64,000 nt of DNA, taken from assembly GCA_010672965.1 (NCBI GenBank), contig JAAHFN010000028.1:1-64000 (forward strand), read 5' to 3'. This document shows, piece by piece, positions 7,210 through 64,000 of this stretch. Below the pieces are notes generated by a model. That model was not told the origin of the DNA. It made no database searches and saw nothing but the letters and a program-made list of their open reading frames with translations. The DNA comes from Oscillatoria sp. SIO1A7. GTDB taxonomy: Bacteria; Cyanobacteriota; Cyanobacteriia; Cyanobacteriales; Laspinemataceae. Both the position numbers and the translations under genes were made by a program. The number at the start of each line of letters is the position of its first letter. Position 1 is the stretch's first letter.

Positions 7210-7217
7210 TCGCAGGT

Positions 7218-7835: not shown

Positions 7836-8212
7836 AAAATTGGGCATTGGGCATGTTCGCATTGGGCAAAAAAGCTCTCAGCTCTCAGCTCTCAGCTCTA
7901 GCTGAGAGCTTCCTTGGGCATTGGGCATTGGGCAATTCATAGCTTATACGCTCCGCGCAGGCGTAGCTCTTCTGCTTTTATCTTTTAGCTTACTGCTGAG
8001 AGCTGACCGCTGACTGCTTTTCTGGGAATTGGGCAAAAGGTAATTTGGCAAACAAGAGCGGAGTCAAGGGCAAAAGGGCATGAGGATATCTGGGTTATTT
8101 TTGACTAGAGTATGGTGATTTTGGAGAAATAATTTCTGGAGTCACTCCCCAATGCCCAATTCCCTATGCCCAATTCCCTATGCCCAATTCCCCATGCCCA
8201 ATTCCCAATTCC
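7836..8212. repeat. Intergenic repeats between cobH and the 2H phosphodiesterase
   Basis: This stretch holds GGGCATT units (about 7846-7870 and 7914-7933) and a CAGCTCT array with its inverted arm GAGCTGAGAGC (about 7873-7908). It also holds AATTCCC/AATGCCC units (about 8146-8215). A cobalamin-riboswitch B12 box was looked for and not found. Confidence 0.6.
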
Positions 8213-9529: not shown

Positions 9530-9541
9530 ATGCAGGGGGTC

Positions 9542-11762: not shown

Positions 11763-12230
11763 AAAAGCAAGCCTATTTATATAAATAAATATACTAGGTA
11801 AGCTAACTCTCCTGCGGACAGCCGTAGGGGCGAATGCCATATATGCCATATGCCCATCCAAAGGCAGGCTCCGCCTTTCATGTCGCGACAGCGACATGAA
11901 ACGATATATATTGGCATAATTGAGATGCTATCGGGCAGAGAAGCGTATTATAAGTTAGCAATTAGCAATAAAAAGTAACTTTAAGGAGATAAGCTCTAAT
12001 TGCCCCGAAATTTCCCATCTCCTTAATATGAGACAGATGGGAAAAATAATGCTAGGATTCAGCACATAGTTTTATGATGATTCTGGAGACAGGGGCTTAA
12101 TCTTTATCCTGAGTCCAAAATTAAAACGGGAGCTGCTCGGGTGCTGCCAAAGCGAGCGAAAGCCGGGGGTGCGGCTCAATGGACAAGCTTATCTCTCTTT
12201 GTATATATTATTTTATTCTGACAAACCGCA
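11763..12230. other. Intergenic region between the DUF4168 paralogues
   Basis: A perfect palindrome (TTCATGTCGC, 4-base loop GACA, GCGACATGAA) lies at about 11878-11901. No gene or recognised element fills the rest. Confidence 0.5.
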
Positions 12231-12737
12231 ATGATTGTAAAATATTCCGGTCTTCGTGCCAAATTATCGCACTTACTATTTGCTAGCTTGCTAACCCTGC
12301 CTTGGCTGCTAGGGGGAGTAGTACCTAGCCTGGGAAGGCGATCGCCAACTGGAACGAGTTCTGTGGCAATTGCCCAATCTCTCAGCGATGAAGAGGTTCG
12401 CCAATTCGCCCAGTCTCTATGGGACATAGAGCAGTTGCGCCTGCAAGTATATGATGCTATCAAAAAAGAGTTTGGCAATATTCCCGCCATAGATTGCAGC
12501 GATTCTAATAGCGTTGACGGATTAGAGCCAGAAATTCGCGAGCTAGCTGTCTGTTTCTGCAATGAGTCAAAAAAAATAGTTTTAGAGGATAATCAATTAA
12601 CAATTTCTCAATTCAATACTTTTAAAAAGACATACGAAGAAGAACCAGCAGTGCAAGCGCTGGTTGACGCTCAATTAACATCTATCCAACAAGAAGATAG
12701 CGGCGATACTGCTAATGCTAACCGATGCGTACAGTAG
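12231..12737 (+). CDS. Secreted DUF4168 protein (copy 2)
   Basis: The product is 168 aa. A hydrophobic segment at about 15-30 and a putative cleavage near AIAQS (about 48) precede SLSDEEVRQFAQSLWDIEQL, which aligns with the DUF4168 signature of copy 1. The mature region has cysteines at AIDCSD and a CFC pair (LAVCFCNES), plus one near the C-terminus (NRCVQ). Copy 1 has only two, so extra disulfides are possible here. It is probably exported. The role is unknown. The paralogous pair is separated by 470 bp without a recognisable terminator. Confidence 0.78.
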   Translation: MIVKYSGLRAKLSHLLFASLLTLPWLLGGVVPSLGRRSPTGTSSVAIAQSLSDEEVRQFAQSLWDIEQLRLQVYDAIKKEFGNIPAIDCSDSNSVDGLEPEIRELAVCFCNESKKIVLEDNQLTISQFNTFKKTYEEEPAVQALVDAQLTSIQQEDSGDTANANRCVQ

Positions 12738-13134
12738 AAGCTAAGCCTATAGCTTGATTTTAGAATGAAAATAATACAAATTTTTAAAACAGAAAATCGT
12801 CTGGCAATATGGCCGGATATATTGGGGATCGTCTAAAAAATAGATTATCTAAAGTAACATCCAAGGTAACGCCGCTAAGGATGGCTGCATCCAGTTCTGT
12901 TAACGCACCTGGATGGCGGCGTTACAAATAATAGGTTATCTATTGGCCAATAGATGCTCCCTCTCCCTATATTGGAGAATTTTGGAGAAAGGCGATCGCG
13001 CTGTCTGTTGTTATTGTTACCGCCGAGCCAGCCCAATCTGCCCATCTAGCAAAATAAAATCTAAAAACATGTTAAAAATAGTCAAGGGTAATCGAGACAG
13101 ACAAGAGTGACATTATTGGTGTGGAGGTAGAATT
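12738..13134. other. Intergenic region before the histidine kinase
   Basis: Two segments of an imperfect inverted repeat are visible (GTAACGCCGC at about 12867 against GCGGCGTTAC at about 12917). A 65-codon ORF (12913-13110) has no supporting features. The kinase ribosome-binding site GGAGG lies at 13123-13127. Confidence 0.45.
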
Positions 13135-15297: not shown

Positions 15298-15360
15298 ATA
15301 ATAGCGATCGCGCTTTGTTCTTAGATTCTTAGTTACTTAGCGCTAGTTGCTTAGGTTTCA

Positions 15361-15515
15361 GCTAGGGTCTTGATTCTGAAGCTTTTTCACCACATTTTTG
15401 ACATCCGGGTATCGTGACGTTCGAGACCATAAACCTCCGTTACCGTAGGGCTTTCCAGCTCCCGAAAGCGGTCGGTAAATAGTATGAAGTTTCCCCACAC
15501 CCCACACCCTAGGTT
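15361..15515. repeat. Family I dispersed element, inverted copy
   Basis: Read on the minus strand it contains GGGGAAACTTCATACTATTT, a GACCGCTTTCGGGAG hairpin and a GTGTGGGG end. Related sequences in plus orientation occur at 26094-26255 and 41206-41375. Non-coding. Confidence 0.55.
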
Positions 15516-15519
15516 TCAG

Positions 15520-16029
15520 CTAGTGGTGAGAGTCCCCAGTTAAACCAGAACGCGGGCATTGCCAATCCTCTGATAGGGAGGAAGGCCAACCCTCTTGCAA
15601 TGCCTCGGGACAAATAGCATGAATGGTTAATTGACAGTCGAGTAAATCGTATGAAGCACTATTGGCTTGCTTTTGGCCAACTTCTAAAACTAAGTCATTG
15701 ACAAATTCAATAGTTTGGTGGCAGCGAACGCAGACCAAATGGTGGTGCGGCGGAGACAGTTGATTTATTTCATAATGTTTGTGTCCTTCCGCTAGTTCCA
15801 GTTCTCGTAAAATACCCATTTGCGACATTAATTTCACAGTTCGATAGATTGTAGCGAGGCTAATTACTTCTCCTTGGCGCTGGACTAATTCATAGAGATC
15901 TTCGGCGCTCAGATGTTTTCCTTTGGGAAGCGTTTGAAAAATATTAAGAATAGTCTCTCGCTGTGGCGTGAGACGAAACCCATGCTTTTTAAGCGCGGCT
16001 CTCAATAAAATTTCGGTGTAAGATGCCAT
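15520..16029 (-). CDS. Fur-family transcriptional regulator (FurA-like)
   Basis: Fur-family proteins are dimeric metal-sensing repressors. The product is 169 aa. The winged helix occupies about 10-85 ([37 protein letters not shown]). The metal/dimer domain has [25 protein letters not shown] and [13 protein letters not shown]. The sequence is closest in appearance to cyanobacterial FurA, the ferric uptake regulator. Oddly, FurA normally ends its structural-zinc site with CPxC; here the first CxxC (CVRC) is intact, but the second reads CPEA and an unusual Ser/Gly-rich tail follows. The structural zinc may be lost or differently bound. The start is ATG 16029. Seven GGGAATT units lie directly upstream where a promoter would be expected. 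Confidence 0.85.
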
Positions 16030-17009
16030 GTATGTAGGGAATTGGGAATTGGGAATTGGGAATTGGGAATTGGGAATTGGGAATTTTTCTCCCTTGCTTT
16101 GCCGTCTTCGCCGTAGGACATCTGTCCCGGCCTGTCCCCGCCTGTCCGGGGTCCGGGTACAGATGGGACGCCTGTCCTGGGAGTTGGGCCAATTTATTTC
16201 TTGGAATCGCCTAACCGTGCCATTTCGCAGTACGAGCAGTATGTCTGTTTAGCAGTATAAGATTATTGAGAATAAATATCAATATATAAAGGCAGAAAAA
16301 GACAATAAAATTTTTCCCTATGCGGCCCGCGATCGCGCCCGCAATCGGTCGTATCTTGCTGGGACAAGGGTTTTGCTCTTTTGCTTTAGGGCTGAGTCTG
16401 CCCCGCACCTAGGACTGAGGCGGCTGAGGCCAAAAGGCTCTCGACTAACTGGCGATCGCCAATGCCTGAAAACTTAAAAGTATTTTGCAATAAGGGACTT
16501 GCGCGGAAATAAAGTACCAGTCCCTAAGCATTCCACCGTTCGGGCGCTCGCGGAGTCGAAGCCCTTCTATAGGGGCAAACGGCCATTCGTCCATTCGGGC
16601 GATCGCCCGTTTGCCCGGTCGTCTGCGGCCGTTCGCCCGAGCGTCTGGCTGTCTGACTTGTCAGACAGGCGGCAATCTCTGAGCCTCCAGGGGATGGGTC
16701 GCGGATGTAACAGACGGGTCGAGGAACTAGCGACTATTTTTTTGGGAATAGCGATCGCCCTGTTGCAGAGAAACCGGCGGAGCAGAGAAACCCGGTTTTG
16801 CAGGAAAAACCGGGTTTGTGAACCCCTGATTTAATTGGTGGGTCGAAAGGAGCGATCGCGCCAGTTGCAGAGAAACCGGCGTAGCAGAGAAACCCAATCC
16901 GACTTTAGGTTGATTTGACAAAGACTAAAATGCGATCGCGTAGAGAGCGTTATAGCGATAGAGGGCAGTCCCTGCTTGCGTTCTATCGACCGGGTAGGAA
17001 CCGCCTTAC
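16030..17009. other. Repeat-rich region without recognisable genes
   Basis: GGGAATT 7-mers fill about 16037-16085. A GTCCCGG/CCTGTCC palindromic cluster lies at about 16110-16180. AGAGAAACCGGCG units with CCCGGTTT partners occur at about 16768-16820 and 16863-16895; the same unit recurs near 18033. Many ORFs cross this region on both strands, none with ribosome-binding site, motif or coherent composition. Confidence 0.5.
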
Positions 17010-17018
17010 TGCTATAAT
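17010..17018 (+). promoter_or_regulatory. Extended -10 promoter for the small TTG-start gene
   Basis: TGC followed by TATAAT at 17013-17018 forms an extended -10 element; no good -35 is visible. It lies about 35 bp before the TTG-start ORF and on the same strand. Confidence 0.45.
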
Positions 17019-17053
17019 TCATCACTGGAATCTAAAAAAAGCAAGGAGGTCCG

Positions 17054-17230
17054 TTGCCCACAAAGAAAAAGAATTTCTCCCAAGGAAAACCCACCCGCTG
17101 CCACGATCTACTGCACGATCGGCCGGGTTTTGGGTTGGGCTATCTGAGCAGCCGGGCTAGCTATTGGAGTATGCCACTAGACTATTTTGCCCATAGTCCA
17201 GGGCTTACTCCGTGCCAGTCCGGTTTTTAA
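17054..17230 (+). CDS. Possible small protein gene (58 aa)
   Basis: I do not recognise this protein. A TTG at 17054 follows AAGGAGG (17043-17049) by four bases and opens a 58-codon frame ending at 17230. The product starts basic (MPTKKKNFSQGK), has two cysteines (RCHDLLHD and LTPCQSGF), and is rich in Gly, Ser and aromatic residues, with no membrane segment. Support for a gene comes from context: an extended -10 promoter about 35 bp upstream, a strong ribosome-binding site, and a rho-independent terminator 80 bp after the stop. The transcript could instead be a small RNA, with the frame fortuitous. Confidence 0.4.
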   Translation: MPTKKKNFSQGKPTRCHDLLHDRPGFGLGYLSSRASYWSMPLDYFAHSPGLTPCQSGF

Positions 17231-17305
17231 GGGAGAAGTTTCTTTTCTTTGAGTGAGAAGGCCTCCCTGCTAGGCTTGACTTTTTTTTCACTTACAAAGG
17301 GTCGC

Positions 17306-17336
17306 GGCTAGCCGTGGCCCCTTTTTTGTGCCCCTC
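17306..17336 (+). terminator. Rho-independent terminator
   Basis: GGGTCGCGGC and GCCGTGGCCC form a GC-rich stem around a TA loop, followed by CCTTTTTTG. It would end the transcript of the 17054 small gene. Confidence 0.75.
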
Positions 17337-17749
17337 TACAGGAGCTATGAAACTATAGTAGCAGTGCTTTGCTCGAACGTCAACACTAAATGCAAAAAAT
17401 TTTTTTGCACTTCTGCACCTCTCGCAAAACCGCCACTTTCGTATAGCCTAATTTTACAGCCTCGGTAGCCATTACTGGATCCTCCGCCAAGAGATTGTAG
17501 CTCCACCACAAATATTCGCCGCTGTGCGGAATTCTCTCATTCACGGAATTCTCTCATTCACGGAATTCTCTCATTCAAAATTCCTTTGCAGCCGAGGTTG
17601 GGTTGAACTGTTGACGTTGGCGTTGGCGCAAAGAATGTAAAGGCGACAGCAACAAGAGAGACAATCCCGTTGCTTAAAGGTAAAGTTATTATACAGGGAT
17701 GCGCGGGCCCCAGACGGCTATGCAACCCAGGGCCCGCGCATCCCAATAC
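17337..17749. repeat. 17-bp tandem repeat and a 15-bp stem palindrome
   Basis: GGAATTCTCTCATTCAC is repeated three times in tandem from 17528 to about 17578. A perfect 15-bp inverted repeat (GGGATGCGCGGGCCC at 17696-17710, GGGCCCGCGCATCCC at 17730-17744) lies just before family A copy 4. No gene is seen. Confidence 0.7.
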
Positions 17750-17755
17750 AATACA

Positions 17756-17900
17756 CAGGACTTACGCAAGCCTAAGTCCATATCTAGTATTTGTAGGGGC
17801 AATCCAAAGAGCGATTCTCAGGGGCCCAGACGCTATGCGCTTGCGCGCAGGCTCCGCCAACGCGATCGCCCCTAGTCCTTGAGTCGATGCGTAAGTCCTG
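17756..17900. mobile_element. Family A MITE-like element, copy 4, with target duplication
   Basis: The element runs from CAGGACTTACGC to GCGTAAGTCCTG. AATACA flanks both ends exactly (17750-17755 and 17901-17906), a 6-bp target-site duplication. The interior contains the family core and an extra palindromic insert ending in a HIP1 site. Confidence 0.88.
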
Positions 17901-18138
17901 AATACATTTTTGCGAAAAGAGCAAAGATTGTCTCGGGAATGCTGTCGCCCTTACAATTAACGCCCGGGAAAATGGCGAGGGTATTGTCCTCTGATTTAAT
18001 TGCTGGGTCAAAATAAGCGATCGCGCCAGTTGCAGAGAAACCGGCGACTATTTTTTTTGAGAACAGGCGATCGCAGGGGAATGTTTAATGCTATATCGGC
18101 GATGAAACGGCCTCGATCTTAACAGTCTATCTCTGGCA

Positions 18139-18280
18139 TATAGCGGGTTTCAAATAAGTATAACGAACGAAGATTAGGGGCGACAGCATTCCCGAGACAG
18201 TCTTGGCCGTACAAGAGTAACCTCTGGTACTCTCGTTGCTTCGCCCCAGGAAACCTCAAGCCAATTTGAGAAAGGCTATA
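18139..18280. repeat. Family E element, copy 1
   Basis: The ends TATAGCGGGTTTCAAATAAG and ATTTGAGAAAGGCTATA are imperfect inverted repeats 142 bp apart. They enclose GGGGCGACAGCATTCCCGAG and TTGCTTCGCCCCAGGAAACC, found in other family copies. Non-coding. Confidence 0.75.
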
Positions 18281-18382
18281 TTTACCCATCCTAAAGCAGA
18301 AATTTGTACTTATGCTAAGACCGATTAGGGCCAGCTTTATTTAAACTAATTACAAAAAGTAAAAAATATTTTGTAAAAAAGG

Positions 18383-18410
18383 TTGACAATTTAAAAAATA
18401 GTGCTATAGT
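18383..18410 (+). promoter_or_regulatory. Sigma-70-type promoter of the 75-aa gene
   Basis: TTGACA (18383-18388) and TATAGT (18405-18410) are separated by 16 bp in AT-rich DNA. Transcription would begin near 18417, about 58 bases before the ATG at 18475. Confidence 0.8.
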
Positions 18411-18430
18411 AAAGATGTCAGCAAAAAAAA

Positions 18431-18447
18431 AGGGGCGTTGAGCCCCT
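18431..18447 (+). promoter_or_regulatory. Leader hairpin before the 75-aa gene
   Basis: AGGGGC and GCCCCT form a 6-bp stem with a GTTGA loop, preceded by a run of nine A residues, within the short 5' leader. There is no following T-run, so this is not a simple terminator. A role in mRNA stability or antisense termination (the A-run reads as T on the other strand) is possible. Confidence 0.5.
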
Positions 18448-18474
18448 CGTCACACAATAAAGGATGTAATTTTT

Positions 18475-18702
18475 ATGAATGGATTTCGTTGGAATCTCAA
18501 CGATTTAATCGTCAACACTCAAACCAACCCCCAAGGACGGCGCAGCTTGACTCGTCAAGAAATCTTTGTTTTGGGTTGGTTGATATCCTACACAACGGAC
18601 CGCCACTATAGCGACCTGCTCCGGGATTGCAAGCTCGCGCCAGAGCAATGCCATACGGCGATCGAAGGATTATTAGAGTTAGACCTCTTGCGCTTGCGCT
18701 AA
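18475..18702 (+). CDS. Conserved-looking small protein (75 aa)
   Basis: The product is 75 aa, hydrophilic, probably cytosolic. It starts MNGFRWNLNDLIVNTQTNPQ, contains TRQEIFVLGWLISYTTDRHY and a Leu-rich C-terminal helix (AIEGLLELDLLRLR). I do not recognise a named family. The gene is complete as a transcription unit: a TTGACA/TATAGT promoter, a 58-base leader carrying a hairpin, an AAGGA ribosome-binding site 10 bases before the ATG, and a rho-independent terminator 25 bp after the stop. The helical, winged-helix-like spacing could suit a small regulator, but that is only a guess. Confidence 0.7.
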   Translation: MNGFRWNLNDLIVNTQTNPQGRRSLTRQEIFVLGWLISYTTDRHYSDLLRDCKLAPEQCHTAIEGLLELDLLRLR

Positions 18703-18725
18703 ACGGTCCAACTATTAGTAAATTG

Positions 18726-18758
18726 GCCCCCGGCTCCCCTGGAGTCGGGTTTTTTGCG
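18726..18758 (+). terminator. Terminator of the 75-aa gene
   Basis: CCCGGCTCC and GGAGTCGGG pair across a CCT loop, followed by TTTTTTG. Confidence 0.8.
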
Positions 18759-18774
18759 CCAAGTCATTATAGCA

Positions 18775-19030
<256 letters not shown>

Positions 19031-44897: not shown

Positions 44898-45038
44898 TAT
44901 CGCGGTTCTCAAATAAGTGTAATACGCGATCGGGTAGGGGCGACAGCATCCCTTCGACAATCTCTTAGCTCGCAACGGAACTTCCGTATTGGGATGCAAC
45001 GCCGGTGGCAACCTCACATCGATTTGAGAACCGCTATA
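44898..45038. repeat. Family E element, copy 2
   Basis: The ends TATCGCGGTTCTCAAATAAG and ATTTGAGAACCGCTATA are inverted. The 141-bp element includes GGGGCGACAGCATCCC and TGGGATGCAACGCC. Its right arm supplies the last codons and the stop of the cyclodipeptide synthase gene. Confidence 0.82.
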
Positions 45039-45718
45039 TCGCGTCTGCGGCGAAAGCGAACGCTAACGTAAGGAAAATTATCCAAACCTTTGAGGGCATC
45101 GGGAATATCTGCATTGCGCATAAATTCCATAGTTTCTAGTGGTTTTCCAGGATAAATATCTGCCGCCTGATGGTGACGAGCAAAATTAATATCTGCGCTC
45201 ACTTCTTCAAGAAGAAAATTACAAGCATTTTCAAGTACCAGGTTGTCATCGGATATACGATCCAACATTAATGGCGATCGATTAAGAAAATTGCTCGCAT
45301 CCCTTTTGACAGCCGCTTGAAAATGCTTGTTTTTTTGATAAAAAGATAAAACTCTCTCATGTATCTCTTTATATTCAGGGTGGCAAATCCAATCATCCCA
45401 GCGATTTATCAAATTATGGGGAATTTCATACATTTGTAAGATGTCTTGATGTTCCTCTAACCAGCGATCGCCAAGATTCAATGCCTTATCATATGCTGTT
45501 TTTTCATCGATTCCATATGACATGAAGGTATGCTTGTATAGAGTATCGGCCAAGATGATACCCACCTGCTCGTACCGTCGAGAAGCCCACTCTAGCATCG
45601 CACTGAACTTAGTTCCAGAAGTCCCATCATTCTTCAAACTGATTCCCACCATAGCGAGCGGTTTTTCCCTCCATAAGGGATGGTGAAACTCAGATTTAAC
45701 CTTGTACGAGGAGTTCAT
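45014..45718 (-). CDS. Probable tRNA-dependent cyclodipeptide synthase
   Basis: These enzymes use two aminoacyl-tRNAs to make a diketopiperazine. The product is 234 aa. GISLKND (25-31) aligns with the AlbC segment holding catalytic Ser37 and Asn40: here Ser27 and Asn30. SGTKFSAMLEWASRRYEQVG and ILADTLYKH match the conserved helix and D.L.RH region. CNFLLEEVSAD has Glu172 where AlbC has Glu182, at exactly the same distance from the Ser (145). However, the residue four before it is Phe168, where AlbC has Tyr178. IYPG near 189 fits the late pocket loop. The last residues (DIAVLKSM) are encoded by a family E repeat end, so the native C-terminus may be altered. No oxidase, methyltransferase or P450 is adjacent. 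The amino acids used are unknown. Confidence 0.75.
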   Translation of the reverse strand: MNSSYKVKSEFHHPLWREKPLAMVGISLKNDGTSGTKFSAMLEWASRRYEQVGIILADTLYKHTFMSYGIDEKTAYDKALNLGDRWLEEHQDILQMYEIPHNLINRWDDWICHPEYKEIHERVLSFYQKNKHFQAAVKRDASNFLNRSPLMLDRISDDNLVLENACNFLLEEVSADINFARHHQAADIYPGKPLETMEFMRNADIPDALKGLDNFPYVSVRFRRRRDIAVLKSM

Positions 45719-52239: not shown

Positions 52240-54168
52240 ATGCATATAACAAACGATCGAGTTCGCAGCTCCTACAGTCGAGGAGCAGCTCCACGCCTAT
52301 CACAATCGAACTACCAAGCAGAAAACGACGAAACTTACAAGCACATGAGATATTTAACCCTTAGTCACCCACATGACGGTGTGGTTAAGGATAAAAGACG
52401 CATTATTTCAGCAGGTAATTTAGGTCCTCACAGTGCTTGTAGTCTAATTAATCCTGGGGCATTATATCGGAATAATGAATTCCAATTACTTTGTCGTGGC
52501 GAACCCGATGAAACCGTATGGTTTGGGGATTTTTTGGCTCATCAAGCAAGCCCTTTGTGGTGTACCTTAGATAAAGACTTAAATATAAAAAATAGCTTTT
52601 ATTTACGTTATCCAGAGTTACCAAAAAACAGTAGGCCTGAAGATTGGCGTTTATTTGAATACAGGGGTAAACTCTATGCCAATCACTCTATATATATGCT
52701 TTTAGATCGCGAGAACTGGATTGTTTGCGCTCGTCCGGGTATCTCAGAAATCGATCTTAAAAGCCAAACCCTAAGATTGCGCTGGATGCTAGAGCCTCCC
52801 TTCGATCCCTCACCCGAAGAAAAAAACTGGAGTTTTTTTGTTTATGAAGGCTCTCTGATGTGCCTTTATTCATTCAAGCCTTATATTATCTTGCAAGTTG
52901 ACTTAAGACGAGGAACAACAAAAAAAATCTTAGAAGCAAATCCCGATTACCAATGGTATGAAAAGGGGGCATTTATCGGAAATAGTACCAATTTAGTCTC
53001 TTGGGACGACGATAGTTACATCATGTTCGTTCATGATTTCCTAGAGCCTAGGTACGGACAGAGAGACCGAGCATATATGCAATACGGGGTTCTGATTAGC
53101 AAGCACACCTTATTGCCTACTAATATTATTACTCGACCCTTGATTATGGGCGGAGATGAATCAGGAAGACATCCAGGGGTTCATTACACTAGCGCGCTAG
53201 TCAATCGAGATGATGGGTTGTATGCATTTTATGGAGAAGGAGATAGCCATACCGGAATTGTTATTTTTAACAAGAATTCACTCAATGAATTATTTTCTGA
53301 ATATCGACTAGACAAGACAAAAAACTCGCAGGCTTTAATTATGAAAGGGACAGACTCTAGCAAAAATATAATTGTTTCTCAAGCAAAAAAAAGAAACGGG
53401 TTAAACTGGATTCGTAATTGTCTCGAAAATTTTACTGGGCGGCCTACGGTAGCAGCACAGACAAAACCGATCGAAGATGTCACGCAGTTTGGAATTATGA
53501 AAGGGATAGACTCTAGAAAAGGTATAATTGTCTCTTATCCAAGAAGCGGTCTAAATTGGGTTCGTTATTGTATCGAATATTTTACCGGACTGCGTACAGC
53601 AGGACAGACAAAACTGATTGAAGATGGGGATTTAGCTGTTTACCGAACTCATAATGTCAAGGAAAACGACTGGCCCGATTCCTGTTCTTGTCCTTTTTAT
53701 GACGAGGGAGGGAAACCCATACATCGTAAGGTTCTGTTACTTTTAAGGGATTATCGAGAATCGTTTCTTCGAGTTGCTTTAGCACAAGAAGACAAGGTGC
53801 CCACAGCAGAGGAGATCCGAAATGGAAAAATTTTCCACTTTAGAAACTACTTTGAGAATCTTAAAGCTTATGATGAGTTTTCGGGACAAAAAATGGTTGT
53901 CTATTATCCAGATATAATTAGTGACTTATCCGCAATTAGAAAAATTTTAGATTTTTTTGAATTTTCCTATGATTTAACGGGTTTCGATCTAGAGTATCAT
54001 CGTCAGCGATCGATCCAAATTTACGATGACCAACACAAGTCTTATAGCAAAGAGAACCTTTATGATTTTAGCTTCCATCAAGATAGAGTCGATCCTGAAG
54101 TTATTGAAGCCATTGAGAAGTTTGTTGATGATAATTACAGAGATTTAGTAGATCGATATTTACTGTGA
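52240..54168 (+). CDS. Beta-propeller glycosidase-like / sulfotransferase fusion
   Basis: The product is 642 aa. Residues about 30-365 form a beta-propeller-type domain with LINPGALYRNNEFQLLCRGE, RPEDWRLFEYRGKLYANHSI and GRHPGVHYTSALVNRDDGLY, reminiscent of GH130/GH43 glycoside enzymes. It is near-identical in layout to the stand-alone protein at 55094-56188. About 370-420 is a decayed copy of a sulfotransferase N-terminus (NGLNWIRNCLENFTG). About 420-642 is a sulfotransferase with the 5'-phosphosulfate loop SYPRSGLNWVRYCIEYFTG and the 3'-phosphate segment LLRDYRESFLRVAL. It would move sulfate from PAPS onto a glycan that the propeller recognises or trims. No signal peptide is present. A second sulfotransferase gene follows 125 bp downstream. 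Confidence 0.8.
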   Translation: MHITNDRVRSSYSRGAAPRLSQSNYQAENDETYKHMRYLTLSHPHDGVVKDKRRIISAGNLGPHSACSLINPGALYRNNEFQLLCRGEPDETVWFGDFLAHQASPLWCTLDKDLNIKNSFYLRYPELPKNSRPEDWRLFEYRGKLYANHSIYMLLDRENWIVCARPGISEIDLKSQTLRLRWMLEPPFDPSPEEKNWSFFVYEGSLMCLYSFKPYIILQVDLRRGTTKKILEANPDYQWYEKGAFIGNSTNLVSWDDDSYIMFVHDFLEPRYGQRDRAYMQYGVLISKHTLLPTNIITRPLIMGGDESGRHPGVHYTSALVNRDDGLYAFYGEGDSHTGIVIFNKNSLNELFSEYRLDKTKNSQALIMKGTDSSKNIIVSQAKKRNGLNWIRNCLENFTGRPTVAAQTKPIEDVTQFGIMKGIDSRKGIIVSYPRSGLNWVRYCIEYFTGLRTAGQTKLIEDGDLAVYRTHNVKENDWPDSCSCPFYDEGGKPIHRKVLLLLRDYRESFLRVALAQEDKVPTAEEIRNGKIFHFRNYFENLKAYDEFSGQKMVVYYPDIISDLSAIRKILDFFEFSYDLTGFDLEYHRQRSIQIYDDQHKSYSKENLYDFSFHQDRVDPEVIEAIEKFVDDNYRDLVDRYLL

Positions 54169-54293
54169 AATATGGCAACCTTAAGTCGTGCTAAAGGCCG
54201 GAAGCGATTCGGCAGATTCCCGTGCCAGTCGCTTTCTGTTCCCATAAAAAGGTTATAACTCAGACGCAAGAAAGAGGATTGAAGGAAATAACT

Positions 54294-55007
54294 ATGATTA
54301 TTTGCCACGAATACAAGTTTATTTTTATTCATATTGGTAAAACAGGAGGCACCAGTATTGAGAAAGTTTTATGTAACTATTTAGGGATTAATTTTGAAGA
54401 AACTGAAAAAAATCCCGAGGGTGAATGGTGGAAACATATCTGGGCAAAATATATGATAGAATATATTGGGGAAGACATCTGGAATAATTATTTTACCTTT
54501 GCTTTTGTTCGCCATCCTTTTGACATGATTTTGTCGCTATACTCTATGTACACCCAATATCCAGAATATACCGACTTGGAGAATCAGGAACATTTGTATC
54601 ACCCTTGGAACCAATACGATCGCTTTGAAGATTTCATTCTTAGTATGGGTGAATGCAAACACGAACCAGACGATCGATGGCGACTTCAGCTTGAAGAACT
54701 GGGTGTCAGATCCACAATGGATATATGGTACGATTTGGAGAATTTGCAAACCTCTTATCTCACCAATAGCTGGAAAGGAAAGGAGGATGGAGAGGGCGAA
54801 ATTCTAGTTGATTTTGTCGGACGCTACGAAAATTTAACCGAGGATTTCGATAAAGTTTGTCAAAAAATTGGTTTACCTAAGCTTGATTTGATCCATCACG
54901 GTGCCACCAAACACCCTCCCTATCAAGAGTTATACACGAATAGGATGAAAGAAATCGTTTACGATCACTCGTCTCTAGACATTGAACGTTTTTGTTATGC
55001 AACGTGA
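54294..55007 (+). CDS. Sulfotransferase-family protein
   Basis: The product is 237 aa from ATG 54294 (MIICHEYKFIFIHIGKTGGT), preceded by GAAGGAAATA. The PAPS 5'-phosphosulfate loop is IHIGKTGGTSIEKVLC, and the 3'-phosphate motif is FAFVRHPFDMILSLYSMYTQ. This is the form seen in carbohydrate sulfotransferases of the Sulfotransfer_2/3 type. It lies 125 bp after the propeller-sulfotransferase fusion on the same strand and is probably cotranscribed. The acceptor glycan is unknown. The long upstream frame to 54222 lacks support. Confidence 0.85.
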   Translation: MIICHEYKFIFIHIGKTGGTSIEKVLCNYLGINFEETEKNPEGEWWKHIWAKYMIEYIGEDIWNNYFTFAFVRHPFDMILSLYSMYTQYPEYTDLENQEHLYHPWNQYDRFEDFILSMGECKHEPDDRWRLQLEELGVRSTMDIWYDLENLQTSYLTNSWKGKEDGEGEILVDFVGRYENLTEDFDKVCQKIGLPKLDLIHHGATKHPPYQELYTNRMKEIVYDHSSLDIERFCYAT

Positions 55008-55093
55008 GTTAGACTCGACAAGGCAAAACGAGAAGGCGATTCAGACTAGAGAACGATTTTTCGCTTATGGTCTGGCGCTTTAAATTTGTCAAG

Positions 55094-56188
55094 TTATATT
55101 AATGGAGCGCTCTCTAGTTGATAGCGATCGAATAACTCATTGAGGGAATCTTTGTTAAAAACCACAACTCCTGTATGACTATCTCCTTGTCCATAAAAGG
55201 CATACAACCCATCCTCTCGATTTACCAATGCGCTAGTGTAATGAACCCCTGGATGTCTTCCAGGTTCGTCCCCACCAATTTCTAGGGGTCTGGGAATAAT
55301 GCTAGTGGGTAATAGAGTCTTTTTGCTGATGAGGGTTCCGTATTGCATATATGTTCGGTTTCTCAGTTCGTACCTCGGGTCTAAGAAATCATGGATAAAC
55401 AGGATGTAATGGTCTCGATCCCAAGACACTAAATTGGTGCTATTTCCTATAAATTTCCCCTTGTCATACCATTGGTAGTTGAGAGCGGCTTCTAGGACTT
55501 TTTGGGTTGTTCCTCGCTCTAGGTCAATTTCCAATATGATATAGGGTTCAAAGGAATAGAGGCACATTAGAAGTCCCTCATGCATAAAAAAACTCCAGTT
55601 CTTTTCTTCGTCGAACGCTTCAAAAGGAGGCTCTAGCATCCAGCGTAAGTTCAGAGCCTGGTTTTCAAGATCGATTTCAGAAATCCCCAGACGAGACCGA
55701 ACAATCCATTCCTGGCGATCGAGGAGCATATAAACGCTATGGTTGCTATAGAGTTTACCCTGATATTCAAACAAACGCCAATCTTCTGGCCTACTCTTTG
55801 ATGGCAACTCTGAATAATCTAAGTAAAAGCTCTCTTTGTGGGTTAGATCGTTGTTTAAGGTAAACCACAAGGGTTTTGCTTGATAGGCTAAAAAGTCTCC
55901 CTGCCATACGGTTTCGTTGGGCTCGCCACGACAAAGCAGGTGAAATTTATTATCCCTATATAAAACCCCTGGATTGATCGCGCTACAAGCACTATCAGAA
56001 CCAAATTGACCTGCTGTTACGATAGTTTTTTTTATTCTAATCAAGTCTCCATCTGAGTAGCATAGGGCTAATTTTTTCATCTGCTCGTAGGATGCTCTGT
56101 CTTTTACTGGGCTATCGAATTGAGCTGAATAGGAGACGGGTTTTCGACCATGATACCCATGATAGCCTCCAAGTTTACCATTGACCAT
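55094..56188 (-). CDS. Beta-propeller glycosidase-like protein, stand-alone paralogue
   Basis: The product is 364 aa. It is collinear with the first 365 residues of the fusion protein (AINPGVLYRDNKFHLLCRGE, RPEDWRLFEYQGKLYSNHSV, GRHPGVHYTSALVNREDGLY) but in opposite orientation on the chromosome. It ends without any sulfotransferase part, and the N-terminal tail is different and Tyr/Gly-rich. The propeller resembles GH130/GH43 enzymes: an Asp/Glu-rich face recurs (RPEDW, ISEIDLE, GDEPGRHPG). No signal peptide is present. The convergent arrangement with the fusion gene suggests a duplication within the island. Catalytic activity is not proved. Confidence 0.78.
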   Translation of the reverse strand: MVNGKLGGYHGYHGRKPVSYSAQFDSPVKDRASYEQMKKLALCYSDGDLIRIKKTIVTAGQFGSDSACSAINPGVLYRDNKFHLLCRGEPNETVWQGDFLAYQAKPLWFTLNNDLTHKESFYLDYSELPSKSRPEDWRLFEYQGKLYSNHSVYMLLDRQEWIVRSRLGISEIDLENQALNLRWMLEPPFEAFDEEKNWSFFMHEGLLMCLYSFEPYIILEIDLERGTTQKVLEAALNYQWYDKGKFIGNSTNLVSWDRDHYILFIHDFLDPRYELRNRTYMQYGTLISKKTLLPTSIIPRPLEIGGDEPGRHPGVHYTSALVNREDGLYAFYGQGDSHTGVVVFNKDSLNELFDRYQLESAPLI

Positions 56189-56651: not shown

Positions 56652-56691
56652 GAAAATCATTATTCAACTATCGAGTTGAATAATGATTTTC
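56652..56691 (-). terminator. Strong hairpin after the vWA gene
   Basis: GAAAATCATTATTCAACT and AGTTGAATAATGATTTTC form a perfect 18-bp stem with an ATCG loop, 7 bp beyond the vWA stop on the minus strand. It would terminate or stabilise that mRNA. Confidence 0.8.
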
Positions 56692-56698: not shown

Positions 56699-58588
56699 TT
56701 ATTTCTGATTGCCAAAGTTGACATCAGAAACGACTTCATCTTCGCCAAGGGTTATCTTGGCAAATCCACCGGCTGGGGCAGTTTGAGTGAAACCGGGCTC
56801 AACAACTTCCCGCACGACATAATCGCCTGGAGCCAAGTCCGTAAATTGATACAACCCATCGACATCAGTTACTTGACTGGGTTCGCTTGCATCAAGGGCG
56901 CCATTGTCATTCAAGTCTAGGTAGATAGTTACATTAGGTAAAACAGGTTCTAAACCACCGCTAGAGGAGGAACTTGTTGTCCCTTGTCGGCCACTAAAGA
57001 CATTGAGTAGCTCATCAATGGAAGTGAAAATGGTGGCTCGGGGGTCAACCTTTTGTAAGGTAGGTAATGTAGCTCCTGAGCCGGCTCCAAACGCAGTGAC
57101 ATTTACATTGGCATTGCGCAAGCTGCTGGCTGCGGAAGGATAATAGGGGACGTCTGGATTGTTAGGTTCTCCATCAGAAATAAAGACCACATTGGCTTTA
57201 CCCGTTGGTGTGTTTAAGGATTGTATAATGCTTTGAGCTAACTTCAAGGCAGGAGAATAATAAGTATAACCTCTTCCTTGGAGAGAAGACAGAACGTCTT
57301 GAACGTCGGGAATACCGTTGTTATCGTTATCGGCTGCTGGAGCTGTGGCTAATTGAGGTCCAGGGGTGCTTGGATCCATATCAGCTTGATACGCATCGCC
57401 ATTAAAAGAGACGATCGCGACTTTCCCCGTATCGCCGTACCCTTGCTGGATGATTTGCTCGTTCAACGCAATAAAGCCAGCTATTTCGCCGTCGATAATG
57501 TCATCGCTCTGACCATCATTGTTCAAATCTCCCACGGAACTGCCTTGAAATTTCCCATTTTCCGTGCTGCCAGACACATCTATTACAAAAACAACATCAG
57601 GGGGATTTCCCACAACAAGGGTCTCCCGCTTCCCATTGCCATTGATGTCATCCCACTTGAGTCCTTGGATTTTACCCTTATAATCTTTGGCAGGACAGGG
57701 TTGGAGAGAAATCGGAGTCGTGCTAATTTCAGCAAAATCAAAGGCCAAATACGGGTCACACCTGTTGTCGGGACAAGGATCGGATTTATCGTTGGAAGTT
57801 TTAAACTTGGCATTCAAGAAACCAATCCAATAACCAGATTCCCCATTCGCGTCACCATCACTAAAGACTCGAGAAAACTCTAAAGGAACCACTACGGGCA
57901 TAATAATACCATCTTGCTCCTTGTCCTTGGGAGAAGCTTGTACTTCTTGCCCTATCATTTTATCGTAATTACTATCTTTGTGAATTACTTGTGCGGTTTT
58001 GACATCAAAGTCTCCATACATCATGTTCAAGAACAAGGGCGTACCTTTTGGTAGCTTATCTTTAGCTACCTTAAATCGGAACTCGAAAAGAGCATTGTTA
58101 GGTACTTCAGGATCGCCATCGGGGAAGGGATGGCCATGAGTTGGAAAACTTTTGTAGCCGAAGGACTTACCCAAAGACAGGTCTGTATAATCCGAGCCTT
58201 TACTACCTGTATCTATAAATCCTTCACCTGTGGTCAAAGTATTAGCGACTTCTGCATCGGAACGATTATCAAAGGGATCGCCACCATCTCGGTTGCTGAT
58301 TTTGTTGTCCCCATTGAAATCTGGAAGAAAGTCTTGAACAGTTAAAACGCCTTTCCCATCTAGGTTAACGGGACCACCGGAAGCGGCAGTCAAACCTTTG
58401 CCATCACCAAAGCCAAATCCGTCTTGGTCGCCAATCCGAATAGCGGTAAAGGGATAGGGGTAAGTTGTACAGCAGTCCTGAGCCAAGGCAGGGCTGGAAA
58501 CCGAAAAGAAAAGACCTAACACTAGCACGAAAGCTAGCAAGAAAGCACTTATGGTTGACCTGAATAAATGGTCTATAGCTATTTTCAT
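56699..58588 (-). CDS. Secreted von Willebrand A protein with split SdrD-B domain
   Basis: The product is 629 aa. A signal peptide (about 1-36) ends near SSPALAQ. About 40-300 is a beta-rich, Asp/Asn/Gly-rich domain with DxNGDxxxxNRD-type calcium sites. About 309-323 (GLKWDDINGNGKRE) starts an SdrD B-like domain. A vWA domain is then inserted (about 329-535): MIDAS residues in FVIDVSGSTENG, the Thr of GRGYTYYSPA and ISDGEPNNPD. The SdrD B-like domain resumes at about 547-629 (EPVLPNVTIYLDLNDNGALD, PGDYVVREVVEPGF). vWA domains bind ligands or matrix through a metal, so an adhesin role is likely. No anchor motif is evident. A hairpin terminator follows. Confidence 0.85.
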   Translation of the reverse strand: MKIAIDHLFRSTISAFLLAFVLVLGLFFSVSSPALAQDCCTTYPYPFTAIRIGDQDGFGFGDGKGLTAASGGPVNLDGKGVLTVQDFLPDFNGDNKISNRDGGDPFDNRSDAEVANTLTTGEGFIDTGSKGSDYTDLSLGKSFGYKSFPTHGHPFPDGDPEVPNNALFEFRFKVAKDKLPKGTPLFLNMMYGDFDVKTAQVIHKDSNYDKMIGQEVQASPKDKEQDGIIMPVVVPLEFSRVFSDGDANGESGYWIGFLNAKFKTSNDKSDPCPDNRCDPYLAFDFAEISTTPISLQPCPAKDYKGKIQGLKWDDINGNGKRETLVVGNPPDVVFVIDVSGSTENGKFQGSSVGDLNNDGQSDDIIDGEIAGFIALNEQIIQQGYGDTGKVAIVSFNGDAYQADMDPSTPGPQLATAPAADNDNNGIPDVQDVLSSLQGRGYTYYSPALKLAQSIIQSLNTPTGKANVVFISDGEPNNPDVPYYPSAASSLRNANVNVTAFGAGSGATLPTLQKVDPRATIFTSIDELLNVFSGRQGTTSSSSSGGLEPVLPNVTIYLDLNDNGALDASEPSQVTDVDGLYQFTDLAPGDYVVREVVEPGFTQTAPAGGFAKITLGEDEVVSDVNFGNQK

Positions 58589-59960: not shown

Positions 59961-62900
59961 CTACCAAGGACTGCCAATCATAGTAAAGCCCGCCCAATAA
60001 TAAGGATGGCTTAAAGAGCGATCGCCTAGTTCTGCTAGTTCCGCTGGCAAAGGGATATTACCAAAAGTTCCGATTAGCTCGCCATTTTCCAAACGGACAT
60101 TTTCTTCAATCATGGCAGTCTGTGCTTTTCTCAAAGCTTCGGCTTTAATGGGAACCGATCGCAACTGGTGATAAAGTTCGCTCATCAGGCTCAAAGTTCC
60201 AGTATCGTTTGCATACCAAAGACTAGCCAAGGCTGACTTGACCCCCGCTTGAACTGCCAATCCAGCAAAACCGTATTCTGCCTCTGCATCTCCCACCGCC
60301 GTGCGACAGGCGCTCAGCACTAATAACTCCACCTTTGGCTCGTTCCATTTCAGCTCTCGCATCCGCTCTAAGTGCAACTTGCCATCCCATAATTGAAGAT
60401 AGGAGTTTTCTTCTTGGCCGGACTTAAATTGCCCGTGAGTCGCCAAGTGAATAATTCCGAATGGCTTATTTTCTCGCTGTTGCTTGAGATTGTCTAGGGT
60501 AAACTCTTGGTTGAGAAAGGCTTGACTTTCGTGCCAGCCTTCGGCGATCGTGGTGATTTCCACGGGTACGGCTGGCAAAGGATTTTTGTCTTCAAATTCA
60601 GATACACCCATTGCCAATACCGAGGCATTTTTGATATCTGCATAGCGAGCATCGGTCAAATGGAGGCTGGGAGTCAGACTGATATTATATTTTTGAATCA
60701 AAAATTCTTGGCCGTCGTGCAAGGCGGCTAAAGGCAGAGTGCGCAAGCCCCTGTCCATACTAAAAATTAGGGTATCGATGCCTAATTCTTCAAGCTCTTG
60801 CTCTAGAGGAGCGACGAACCAATTATAGAGTTTTTGGGAGGATGGCAAGTAGCTTTTAGTACGGCGTCGAGTCGGATCGGTTATTTGGCGCTTAAATGCT
60901 TGCACTTGTTCTAAGAGTGCGGCTCGATGGGCTGCGGGGACGCTTTTGTGAATGGGCTCGCCTCCGGGCGGAACTAAGACTAAATCTAATTGTTGCGGTC
61001 GGGTAAATATATACATAATAGCGGCCTTGGCAGCGGTGGAGTCGGCCATTTCGCTCAGCTTATCCTGGATTTGGATAAATGTCGGATAAGGGTTGTTGTA
61101 TTTTTGCCGCAAGTAGTCTTCAAAGTCTTTACTAAAGAAAAAGTCTATTTGACGGACCGCCAGAGCTAGATTTTCTTCATCTAGAAAACGCTCTATGTCT
61201 AGGCGAGTATTGAGGTTCACAATTTGCTGGTTACCTCCGAATAGTTCGGGGGAAAGGCGATCGCTACTCCTCATCCCAGATATGCTGCGCTCTTCTGCGG
61301 AGCGATATAAAAAGTCAATCGGGTTGCTCGCGCTAGTTTCTCGGTTAAACTCTCGGTTAGTAACAGGAGCGATCGCTTCCGTTGTTTCTGCGATTGCTCC
61401 TGGGTTATTGGGCGCGATCGCCAGATTTAAATTTGGATTATTGGGCGCTCGATTATTGGGCGCTCGATTATTGGGCGCTGGATTTGGCGTTAAATTAGCT
61501 GTAGTAGCTTGAGTCTGTTCTGAAATTGGCGCTGGATTATTGAGCGGTAGATTATTAGGTGCTGGATTATTTGCAGTTTGGTTATTTTGATTTTGATTGG
61601 GGGCGAGCGCTCTTATTGGTGCTGGGTTATTTGCACTTTGATTATTTTGATTTTGATTGGGCGCGAGCGCTCTTATTGGTGCTGGGTTATTTGCACTTTG
61701 ATTATTTGCAGTTTGATTATTGGGGGCGAGCGCTCTTATTGGTGCTGGGTTATTTGCACTTTGATTATTTGCAGTTTGATTATTGGGCGCGATCGCTTGA
61801 TTATTTGGCCTTGGGTTAGCAGGCGCGAGCGCGTTATTAAAATTTGGATTATTAGGCGCTGGGTTAGCAGGCGTTGGATTAGCAGGCGCGATCGCTTGAT
61901 TATTTGGCCTTGGGCTAACGGGCGCGATCGCTGCAGTTATTGGCGCTGCTGGCGAACTTTCTGGCGCAGAAGTTGGCGAACTGTCGGCTTCTGAAGCCCC
62001 TAAAGTAGCAGAATCACTGACAAAAGAAGGAAGAACGGGATTGTCTGGCGTTGGTGGTATTCTTGCTGGTTCGGAGCTTGCTGGTTCGGAGCTTGCTGGT
62101 TCGGAGCTTGCTGGTTCGGAGCTTGCTGGTTCGGGAGCTGTGGAATTTCCTGGATTCCCGGAATTGCTCGTTTCCGAATCCCCCGAATTGCTTACCTCCG
62201 AATCCCCCGAATTGCTCGTTTCCGAATCCCCCGAATTGCTCGTTTCCGAATCCCCCGAATTGCTTGTTTCCGAATCCCCCGAATTGCTTGTCTCCGAATC
62301 GCCCGAATTGCTTGTTTCCGAATCCCCCGAATTGCTCGTTTCCGAATCCCCCGAATTGCTCGTTTCCGAATCCCCCGAATTGCTTGTCTCCGAGTTGCCG
62401 GAGTTGTCCCCTAAATTATTAGCATCGATCGTTTCCGAGTTGCCGGAGTTATCCCCTAAATTATTAGCATTCCTCGTTTCCGAATTTACGAGATTGATAG
62501 GAATAACGCTTTCGATGTTGAATATTCCCTGAGTGCCAGTCGCTTGATTGGTATCGATATCTACAAAAACCTCACTCTGATAAGCGGAGTAGTCTAGAGT
62601 ATCGTTACCGAGCCAACCATCAATATTGCCATCGATCGCCGCATTATCGCTAAATATAAAAGTGTCATTTTTATCGCCGCCGGTCAGATTTTCTATATTT
62701 TGAAAAGTTAAACCGTTAGGGTACTCCTCGATACTACCGCTACCCATACCTGTAATTTTCCAAGTTGAGTTGCGATTGGGTCCAACAAGAGTAGAACCGC
62801 CAGCAATAATTACAGGAGCATTAAAGCTAGCCCCATTGTTCAGGGTCACCCTTCCCGTTCCCTCTGCAATACCGATTTCTATTGACTCAAACCCAGCGAT

Positions 62901-64000
62901 CGCTTGTAGCTCGGTCTCGTTTAAATCCAAACCAGAGGTAACGCTATATCCGCCAAGTTCGATATTTTGGCTGACAGTTCCCGGCTGCAAAAACAACTTG
63001 CCCGTCCCGCTTATTGAATCTACCTCGCCAAAATTAATCGCATTCCCGGTTACAGTTAAATTTCTCGTTTTTACAGTTCCCGTTATATCGACCAATCCGC
63101 TGCCAGCGTCTAAATTAATCTCTCCCCCATTTGCATTGGTAGAAGTAGTATTTAGATGGCCAACTATAATATCGCCGCCCAAACTTATCAGTTCTATGTT
63201 ACCCCCATTGTCTGGGGCAGAAGTATCAATTCTGCCGACAGCTATACGAGTGCCGAAAATATTTATATCTCTCCCTGGCGCTCGAATCTCGTCTTCTGAG
63301 TTCATCAGAAAATTCCCTTGGCCGCTGCGATCGGCATCAGCTATAAAGGCGATCGCTCCATCTCCGGCAGCAAACTTCAAGGTATTGTCGCTCAACTTCT
63401 CAATCGTAATATCGTTAGTCGCTTGTAGAATTAGATTCGCATCTTGCGCCAAGGATTCCAAAGTCTCTTCGTAGATAATAAAAACCGACCCAGGTTGTTC
63501 TGCTTGCAATACCTCGGGAAGCGTTGTATCGTCATTTCCCCTTCTCGAACCGTTTTTAATTTCGATATCCTCGGGATCGAGCAGCAAAGTGCCCAAATTG
63601 CCCAAACTGTCGTTATTGCCACTGAGGTTTACAGATCCCTCAAAAATTAAGCTTCCTTCGCTCGATATCTCCACAAAACCGCCATTGGATAGGCTGCCAT
63701 TGGATGCGCCCTCATTGGATAGGCTGCTATTGGATGCACTACCATTGGATATCTCGGGGGCAGAGTCGAGAGAAGATTCCTCACTTTCCAGGACGCCCCG
63801 AGCAGTAACGGTGCCGGAGAAATAGTTTATTTCATCTGCCCAAACAACGACCGTACCGCCATTGCCATTTACAAGAGCGTCGGCAGAAATGACAGAATCG
63901 TTGCTGACAAAAACGCGCTGGGCGTTGGGAATAGCGCCCCGGCCTTCAATGTCTCCGCCAATCCTTATTTTACCGCCGCCAAAACTGCCAGAAGCATCAA
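59961..64000 (-). CDS. Hemagglutinin-type CHAT protease protein, 5' end outside the window
   Basis: The frame is open from the stop at 59961 to the window edge: a GTG at 63674 is only internal. Translated from the edge it carries GGGKIRIGGDIEGRGAIPNA, IPNAQRVFVSNDSVISADAL and GNGGTVVVWADEINYFSGTV, the end of a two-partner-secretion hemagglutinin domain. Then come RTX-like GGDKNDTFIF repeats, a GDSETSN-type repeat tract (about 62130-62400), Pro/Asn/Ala-rich repeats (about 61430-61900) and a C-terminal CHAT domain with a caspase-like dyad: His in HLATHGQFKSG and Cys in VLSACRTAVG. The protein would be exported through an outer-membrane partner, with CHAT cleaving or self-processing. The partner is not in the window. 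Confidence 0.9.
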   Translation of the reverse strand, partial: DASGSFGGGKIRIGGDIEGRGAIPNAQRVFVSNDSVISADALVNGNGGTVVVWADEINYFSGTVTARGVLESEESSLDSAPEISNGSASNSSLSNEGASNGSLSNGGFVEISSEGSLIFEGSVNLSGNNDSLGNLGTLLLDPEDIEIKNGSRRGNDDTTLPEVLQAEQPGSVFIIYEETLESLAQDANLILQATNDITIEKLSDNTLKFAAGDGAIAFIADADRSGQGNFLMNSEDEIRAPGRDINIFGTRIAVGRIDTSAPDNGGNIELISLGGDIIVGHLNTTSTNANGGEINLDAGSGLVDITGTVKTRNLTVTGNAINFGEVDSISGTGKLFLQPGTVSQNIELGGYSVTSGLDLNETELQAIAGFESIEIGIAEGTGRVTLNNGASFNAPVIIAGGSTLVGPNRNSTWKITGMGSGSIEEYPNGLTFQNIENLTGGDKNDTFIFSDNAAIDGNIDGWLGNDTLDYSAYQSEVFVDIDTNQATGTQGIFNIESVIPINLVNSETRNANNLGDNSGNSETIDANNLGDNSGNSETSNSGDSETSNSGDSETSNSGDSETSNSGDSETSNSGDSETSNSGDSETSNSGDSETSNSGDSEVSNSGDSETSNSGNPGNSTAPEPASSEPASSEPASSEPASSEPARIPPTPDNPVLPSFVSDSATLGASEADSSPTSAPESSPAAPITAAIAPVSPRPNNQAIAPANPTPANPAPNNPNFNNALAPANPRPNNQAIAPNNQTANNQSANNPAPIRALAPNNQTANNQSANNPAPIRALAPNQNQNNQSANNPAPIRALAPNQNQNNQTANNPAPNNLPLNNPAPISEQTQATTANLTPNPAPNNRAPNNRAPNNPNLNLAIAPNNPGAIAETTEAIAPVTNREFNRETSASNPIDFLYRSAEERSISGMRSSDRLSPELFGGNQQIVNLNTRLDIERFLDEENLALAVRQIDFFFSKDFEDYLRQKYNNPYPTFIQIQDKLSEMADSTAAKAAIMYIFTRPQQLDLVLVPPGGEPIHKSVPAAHRAALLEQVQAFKRQITDPTRRRTKSYLPSSQKLYNWFVAPLEQELEELGIDTLIFSMDRGLRTLPLAALHDGQEFLIQKYNISLTPSLHLTDARYADIKNASVLAMGVSEFEDKNPLPAVPVEITTIAEGWHESQAFLNQEFTLDNLKQQRENKPFGIIHLATHGQFKSGQEENSYLQLWDGKLHLERMRELKWNEPKVELLVLSACRTAVGDAEAEYGFAGLAVQAGVKSALASLWYANDTGTLSLMSELYHQLRSVPIKAEALRKAQTAMIEENVRLENGELIGTFGNIPLPAELAELGDRSLSHPYYWAGFTMIGSPW
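61430..61900 (-). repeat. Asn/Pro/Ala-rich coding repeats in the CHAT gene
   Basis: Several 30-60-bp units (NNQSANNPAPIRALAPN-type) are repeated nearly identically, interspersed with HIP1 sites. Copy number is likely to vary between strains. Confidence 0.75.
62070..62400 (-). repeat. GDSETSNS coding repeats in the CHAT gene
   Basis: A 27-bp unit (TTTCCGAATCCCCCGAATTG core on the plus strand) repeats about nine times. A GCTTGCTGGTTCGGA unit repeats about five times at 62069-62130 (EPASS in the protein). Together they form a flexible linker before the CHAT part. Confidence 0.8.

Follow-up and report, generated by a model that had tools for sequence, protein, structure and literature searches.

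Intact fusions of a predicted GH130-clan propeller and a sulfotransferase in cyanobacterial gene islands paired with exported IRIGD-domain proteins

Introduction

What might a bacterium do with a single polypeptide that joins a sugar-processing type of propeller to a sulfotransferase, and on which substrate would such an enzyme act? The question is raised by a stretch of 64,000 nucleotides from Oscillatoria sp. SIO1A7 (assembly GCA_010672965.1, contig JAAHFN010000028.1, positions 1 to 64,000 of the forward strand; the whole stretch is called the window below). A preliminary description, made from the sequence alone, had placed in it a GH130/GH43-like beta-propeller fused to a sulfotransferase dependent on 3'-phosphoadenosine-5'-phosphosulfate (PAPS), followed by a second sulfotransferase and a stand-alone paralogue of the propeller, and had proposed a new way to make sulfated exopolysaccharide. 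Here, we describe these genes as a conserved island that lies beside genes for exported proteins carrying a shared domain, IRIGD, and we tentatively favor, at somewhat less than an even chance, a compact, laterally moving cassette that is dedicated to these adjacent proteins and that adds sulfate, and perhaps sugar as well, to surface glycoconjugates.

Results

The fusion gene is a single open reading frame (ORF) of 642 codons at 52240-54168 on the plus strand and encodes a predicted GH130-clan propeller followed by a sulfotransferase of putative PAPS type, ST1. The propeller part spans 52240-53328 (profile positions 1-363) and ST1 spans 53488-54162, both on the plus strand, with domain limits at residues ~44-358 and ~417-641 and a short linker between them. 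The second sulfotransferase, ST2, follows on the same strand at 54294-55007; its ORF is open from 54222 onward, but the start was placed at the ATG at 54294, where the alignment with nine homologues begins. The stand-alone propeller (364 residues) lies convergent at 55094-56188 on the minus strand. The layout had thus been read correctly, and an assembly or frameshift artefact is ruled out, because the fusion is intact in 7 of the 388 genomes of the order, in four genera, with the window genome included. Six further fusion loci emerged from a scan of contigs (the metagenome-assembled genome (MAG) Cyanobacteria bacterium SBLK, Cyanothece sp. BG0011, two Symploca MAGs, and two Crocosphaera MAGs), and their coordinates identify them as the six other intact genomes of that survey. 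The fusion is therefore neither unique to one assembly nor frameshifted elsewhere. Some match to it occurs in nine of the 388 genomes, the two that are not intact being a fragment with stops (G143) and a distant sulfotransferase (G488, 32%); a sample of 386 genomes drawn from across the phylum gave two matches, one in the own genome and the other the fragment in G143. Purifying selection acts on the fusion, with a ratio of nonsynonymous to synonymous substitution rates (dN/dS) of 0.08-0.16, and the ratio is low (0.06-0.16) in every homologous island part compared. A further copy of the fusion, at L083 5958-6851 (G625:C164), is truncated and interrupted by one in-frame stop.

The most informative new fact is the pairing of the island with the IRIGD domain, a unit of ~240 residues that starts IRIGDxDGFG. 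An IRIGD sequence lies near the island at all seven loci, at a gap of 31-724 bp in six of them and of 3,598 bp at locus L006. The window partner is an exported protein encoded at 56699-58588 on the minus strand, with a hydrophobic leader (by inspection), the IRIGD domain (57695-58453, minus strand), a VWA domain, and an SdrD_B-like domain. The domain has no Pfam match in the eleven proteins scanned and no NCBIfam match in the window protein; by sequence, it has no match in the PDB under E 0.07, and a fold search gave a best Z of 6.6, under the tool's meaningful level, so that no fold is claimed. Across the 388 genomes, IRIGD occurs in 13 and propeller sequence in 8 (the G143 fragment counted), all eight lying within the 13. 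The hypergeometric probability of this co-occurrence is 1e-13 by genome, where relatives are not independent, and 2e-7 by genus (five of five genera among 9 of 149). In G143 (L084 9029-9339, G143:C3), the remnants of a propeller gene and of an IRIGD gene adjoin each other, likely the scar of a lost island. Other domains of IRIGD proteins include VWA or integrin-type VWA, SdrD_B-like, Ig-like, and DUF642, and exported-type modules (C-type lectin, cadherin-like, and laminin-G-like) are found around the islands. This constant neighborhood of genes for exported, adhesin-like proteins suggests a sulfation system devoted to surface material. It is of note that the L003 island has in its flanks a series of large proteins bearing lectin, cadherin-like, and Ig-like domains (846-18805).

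The propeller was modeled from a 14-sequence alignment (pLDDT, the predicted local distance difference test, 60; pTM, the predicted template modeling score, 0.49) and is predicted to be a five-bladed beta-propeller of the GH130/GT108 clan, aligned over the whole domain. Its best structural match is RaMP1 (5ay9; Z 22.7, root mean square deviation 3.2, 291 residues aligned), and rows 1-22 of the structural matches (VIA-align; Z 22.7-16.8) are GH130/GT108 enzymes or entries titled putative or predicted glycosidases or glycoside hydrolases. A GH32 inulinase in row 23 has the same Z as row 22 (16.8), and GH62 and GH43 come next at Z about 16. Of the earlier GH130/GH43-like assignment, the GH130 type is supported; Foldseek also matched the model to 9fj8 (E 4e-9). 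At the sequence level, a single-sequence PDB search with the fusion gave no direct match, and a 12-row propeller profile reached 7fip, a beta-1,2-mannobiose phosphorylase, weakly (E 6.5e-4). A bridged profile of the 12 propellers plus two cyanobacterial PF04041 proteins matched 7fip at E 2.5e-10 over profile positions 53-333 and BT3780 (5a7v) at E 1.4e-5. Residues Asn71, Arg86, Glu134, Asp135, Tyr316, and Asp335 align with BT3780 Asn74, Arg89, Glu141, Asp142, Phe344, and Asp363 and do not vary among the 12 propellers; a propeller devoid of glycoside-binding residues would have told against the preliminary description, and these invariant sugar-site residues speak otherwise. By this alignment, the catalytic Asp and the minus-one mannose-site Asn and Asp of GH130 enzymes are kept (Asn71 as Asn74, Asp135 as Asp142, Asp335 as Asp363), the Asp135 codon lying at 52642-52644 on the plus strand within an invariant E-D-W-R. 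The letters of the BT3780 chain fit the residue numbers of PMC4599007 at a constant offset, and a table in that source gives no activity for the BT3780 variants D142N, E141Q, and D363A. A beta-1,2 specificity via Lys195 as the counterpart of BT3780 Lys199 is not claimed, the alignment being ambiguous there. No PF04041 (GH130) match above the gathering score was found in the window proteins or in the own genome, and a cyanobacterial GH130 protein (L086) used as a query had no match in the PDB and none in plasmids.

How such a propeller would work is less clear-cut. GH130 phosphorylases bind phosphate through three basic residues. On our interpretation of the alignment, the HRR, PPIK, and YRLG motifs of 7fip, which we take to be the seats of its phosphate-binding residues, are replaced by YSF, NLVS, and YMQY. 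Ordinary phosphorolysis is therefore doubtful. The same alteration, together with the retention of the stand-alone propeller in five of the seven islands, would suit a non-catalytic propeller, that is, a lectin-like arm presenting an acceptor to the fused sulfotransferase, with the stand-alone propeller as a free subunit of a complex. On the other hand, the catalytic Asp and its Glu neighbor are invariant in all 12 propellers, beyond the apparent need of sugar binding, and we consider this arrangement rather unlikely. In GT108 enzymes, one fold serves both transfer and phosphorolysis, according to the portion of PMC8950772 available to us.

The family profile and motifs of ST1 are clear despite a sub-threshold Pfam score: against Sulfotransfer_1 (PF00685), fused ST1 reaches 13 bits in the window, below the gathering score of 22, whereas the fusion of locus L005 reaches 18.7 and the stand-alone ST1 paralogue of L003 reaches 22.6, just above it. 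The loop YPRSGLNW (53536-53559, plus strand), which we presume to be PAPS-binding, recurs as (Y/F)PR(S/N)GLNW in five of the seven fusions; its Arg is also present in both stand-alone ST1 copies, and a TH or SH motif follows the loop in nine of nine ST1 copies, with the His kept in all. Solved sulfotransferases are matched weakly by the ST1 profile (5x2b, E 0.03). Among the 13 genomes searched, 7 have ST1, which is confined there to the islands and the one truncated fusion copy. ST2 belongs to Sulfotransfer_2 (PF03567; 60.1 bits versus a gathering score of 22), in keeping with its earlier description as a sulfotransferase. Island copies of ST2 score 485-503 bits, and no non-island match exceeds 71 bits among the matches listed in searches of 13 and 291 genomes; judged by these scores, ST2 is specific to the island. 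The ST2 profile found only two weak, unrelated matches in the PDB. The fusion and ST2 are present in all seven islands, with two ST2 copies in L005, L007, and L008; the stand-alone propeller is absent from L005 and L007, and a stand-alone ST1 is found in L003 and L008. The window fusion alone among the seven also carries, at 53335-53475 on the plus strand, a decayed extra copy of the ST1 N terminus that has lost the PAPS loop. It lies in frame, 156 nt upstream, with 79% identity over 63 nt (profile E 2e-7), and dN/dS between the two copies is 0.61, versus the 0.06-0.16 of homologous parts between genomes; the duplicate is absent from the six other fusions.

Could the IRIGD proteins themselves be sulfated? 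Sulfotyrosines usually have acidic neighbors, and the motif GS(D/E)YTD of the IRIGD domain, whose Tyr codon lies at 58187-58189 on the minus strand of the window, presents a candidate site with such a neighbor. All 15 of the island-type IRIGD copies compared (from seven genomes, with several near-copies in L005 and L007) have the full motif, which is altered in the four other copies covering it (GSTYTD, GSRFTD twice, and GSLLTD). The comparison comprised these 15 copies and six other pieces, two of which (G632 and G648) do not extend over the motif; G508:C74 and G625:C307, despite their place on other contigs, were grouped with the island-type copies, and G644 and short pieces in L003 (86-376) and L006 were left out. 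ST1 or ST2 would then sulfate this tyrosine before export, as RaxST does on RaxX. Against this stand a small sample confounded by phylogeny, a propeller left without a role, and an ST1 profile that includes no tyrosylprotein sulfotransferase among its 10 PDB matches up to E 10. Direct tyrosine sulfation is in our view very unlikely, and the conservation of the motif may reflect structure or descent and is a lead only. An off-island IRIGD protein of the own genome (L080 5570-6979, G000:C135) lacks the YTD tyrosine and ends in a tail that we take to be PEP-CTERM-like.

The proposal that the island makes sulfated exopolysaccharide was not borne out by its surroundings. At the seven loci, 76 ORFs of at least 150 residues were surveyed, namely 24 island enzymes, 14 with IRIGD sequence, and 38 others, over 24-64 kb at the window locus and up to the contig ends that limit the flanks of L006, L007, and L008. 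A Pfam scan of all 38 flanking proteins, five of which have no Pfam family, detected no Wzx, Wzy, or glycosyltransferase of family GT1 or GT2, and the constant partners are the exported IRIGD proteins. Nine further ORFs in the first 24 kb of the window included no protein of the Wzx, Wzy, or glycosyltransferase kind. No GT1 or GT2 domain (PF00534/PF00535) lies within 40 kb of an island among the matches listed; the matches listed across the seven genomes number about 150 each for GT1 and GT2, and a single one of them shares its contig with an island, at a distance of about 42 kb (G606:C183), the rest being on other contigs. The enzymes might nevertheless tailor the polymer of a distant Wzx/Wzy or ABC cluster, with the IRIGD proteins as matrix lectins that bind it. 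This possibility would fit the tails of some off-island IRIGD proteins, presumably PEP-CTERM-like, the weak likeness of the IRIGD model to a carbohydrate-binding jelly roll (CBM29, Z 6.6), and the one PMT_2 protein among the 38, encoded in L007 at 8244-10025 on the minus strand, which starts 154 bp from ST2 on the opposite strand and is of a sugar-transferase type, that of dolichyl-phosphate-mannose-protein mannosyltransferases. It would also fit the location of cyanobacterial sulfotransferases, which are mostly found in Wzx/Wzy or ABC polysaccharide clusters according to the accessible text of PMC8205485. In contrast, the lack of GT1/GT2, Wzx, and Wzy among the 38 flanking proteins scanned and the fact that ST1 and ST2 form subfamilies of their own, confined to the island, tell against it, and we regard it as unlikely, while giving it real weight.

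As to descent, the fused and stand-alone propellers fall into two old clades whose inner branching agrees, L008 excepted. Because the branching is alike within each clade, the two types were probably inherited together, except in L008. The two old clades rule out a recent local duplication; the window pair shares only 64% of its residues, and the two genes are 75% complementary over 999 nt. The GC content of the fusion (0.391) and of ST2 (0.378), compared with 0.464 for the window, and the scattered occurrence of the island together suggest lateral transfer. Carriage by plasmids or viruses was not supported, with no tblastn match in plasmids and no pattern match in viral contigs. In L005, IS605-type TnpB genes lie among IRIGD genes and beside ST2 (5958-7115 and 11390-12820) and are possible vehicles or disruptors of that island.

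Elsewhere in the window, a perfect 18-bp inverted repeat with a 4-nt loop (56652-56691) separates the island from the IRIGD gene, and scans for promoters and terminators gave signals at or below chance level. A tRNA-dependent cyclodipeptide synthase (CDPS) is encoded at 45014-45718 on the minus strand (TIGR04539, 75.7 bits), and a long protein open at the window end (59961-63998, minus strand) has serine/asparagine-rich repeats and a C-terminal CHAT domain (236 bits).

Discussion

Our bioinformatics analyses suggest how a cassette dedicated to the adjacent IRIGD proteins could operate. The enzymes, which have no leader by inspection, would work in the cytosol, where the propeller would seat or transfer a mannose-type sugar on an acceptor via its conserved Asp and minus-one pocket; the tethered ST1 and its partner ST2 would then move sulfate from PAPS onto the sugar or the acceptor, and at the cell surface or in the matrix, the exported IRIGD proteins would carry the sulfated product or have it bound to them. 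A bolder form of this proposal is that the bacterium sulfo-modifies its own exported adhesins before secretion, one polypeptide adding or holding a mannose-type sugar and sulfating it on IRIGD proteins, and that the whole set moves between cyanobacterial lineages; we think this improbable as it stands, though worth keeping in view.

Several observations weigh against the dedicated cassette. Physical pairing indicates a functional link and is not proof of an enzyme-substrate relation, and the pairing itself is uneven: the L006 contig ends after 32 IRIGD domain positions, with two ORFs between IRIGD and the island, the nearest IRIGD copy in L005 is truncated and the nearest longer gene is 2.75 kb off, 5 of the 13 IRIGD genomes have no island, and three IRIGD copies of island genomes sit on other contigs. 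Low GC is not peculiar to the island, as the nearby CDPS gene has 0.413, and island and locus GC are nearly equal in L004, L006, and L008. The Arg of the PAPS loop is Ala in two of the seven fused ST1 domains (L004 and L006), where ST1 may be inactive, although both are still constrained (dN/dS 0.11). Finally, the motifs altered relative to 7fip may mean that the propeller chemistry has been lost, and the usual home of cyanobacterial sulfotransferases in polysaccharide clusters also counts here.

The island is a genuine conserved architecture, for which no earlier description was found, assembled from component parts of known kinds. In a literature search that subscription papers largely fell outside, no paper combined GH130 with a sulfotransferase and none joined a sulfotransferase domain, a beta-propeller, and a glycosyltransferase in a fusion; this agrees with the preliminary description, which knew of no such system. 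To join a GH130-clan propeller and a sulfotransferase in one protein would be a new enzyme architecture that brings two activities to the same glycan, and its strict pairing with an undescribed family of exported domains makes the targets of bacterial sulfotransferases directly testable in a strain that carries the island. The island could reveal bacterial sulfation of exported proteins or their glycans, beyond free polysaccharide.

Known systems resemble parts of this arrangement. In predicted fold, the island propeller is like the GH130 mannoside phosphorylases and mannosidases (e.g. BT3780 and Teth514_1789) and the GT108 enzymes of Leishmania, with the E-D pair, the minus-one Asn and Asp, and the +1 Arg of these enzymes aligned in it; it differs from GH130 enzymes in having EDWR for EDPR and no PF04041 match in its own genome, and from both groups in being fused to a sulfotransferase. 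The synechan xss cluster of Synechocystis 6803 likewise has two sulfotransferases of different subfamilies close by (XssA and XssE), but, according to the accessible text of PMC8205485, it includes eight glycosyltransferases, Wzx, Wzy, and a polysaccharide copolymerase (PCP), whereas the island flanks have no GT1/GT2, Wzx, or Wzy, and a propeller fusion is not described in that text. RaxST and RaxX of Xanthomonas, as presented in the available portions of PMC4216712 and PMC6637879, offer a parallel in that a sulfotransferase and an exported product are encoded by paired genes; RaxX is a precursor of 60 residues, whereas the partners of the island are large multidomain proteins that stand beside two sulfotransferases and a sugar-type propeller.

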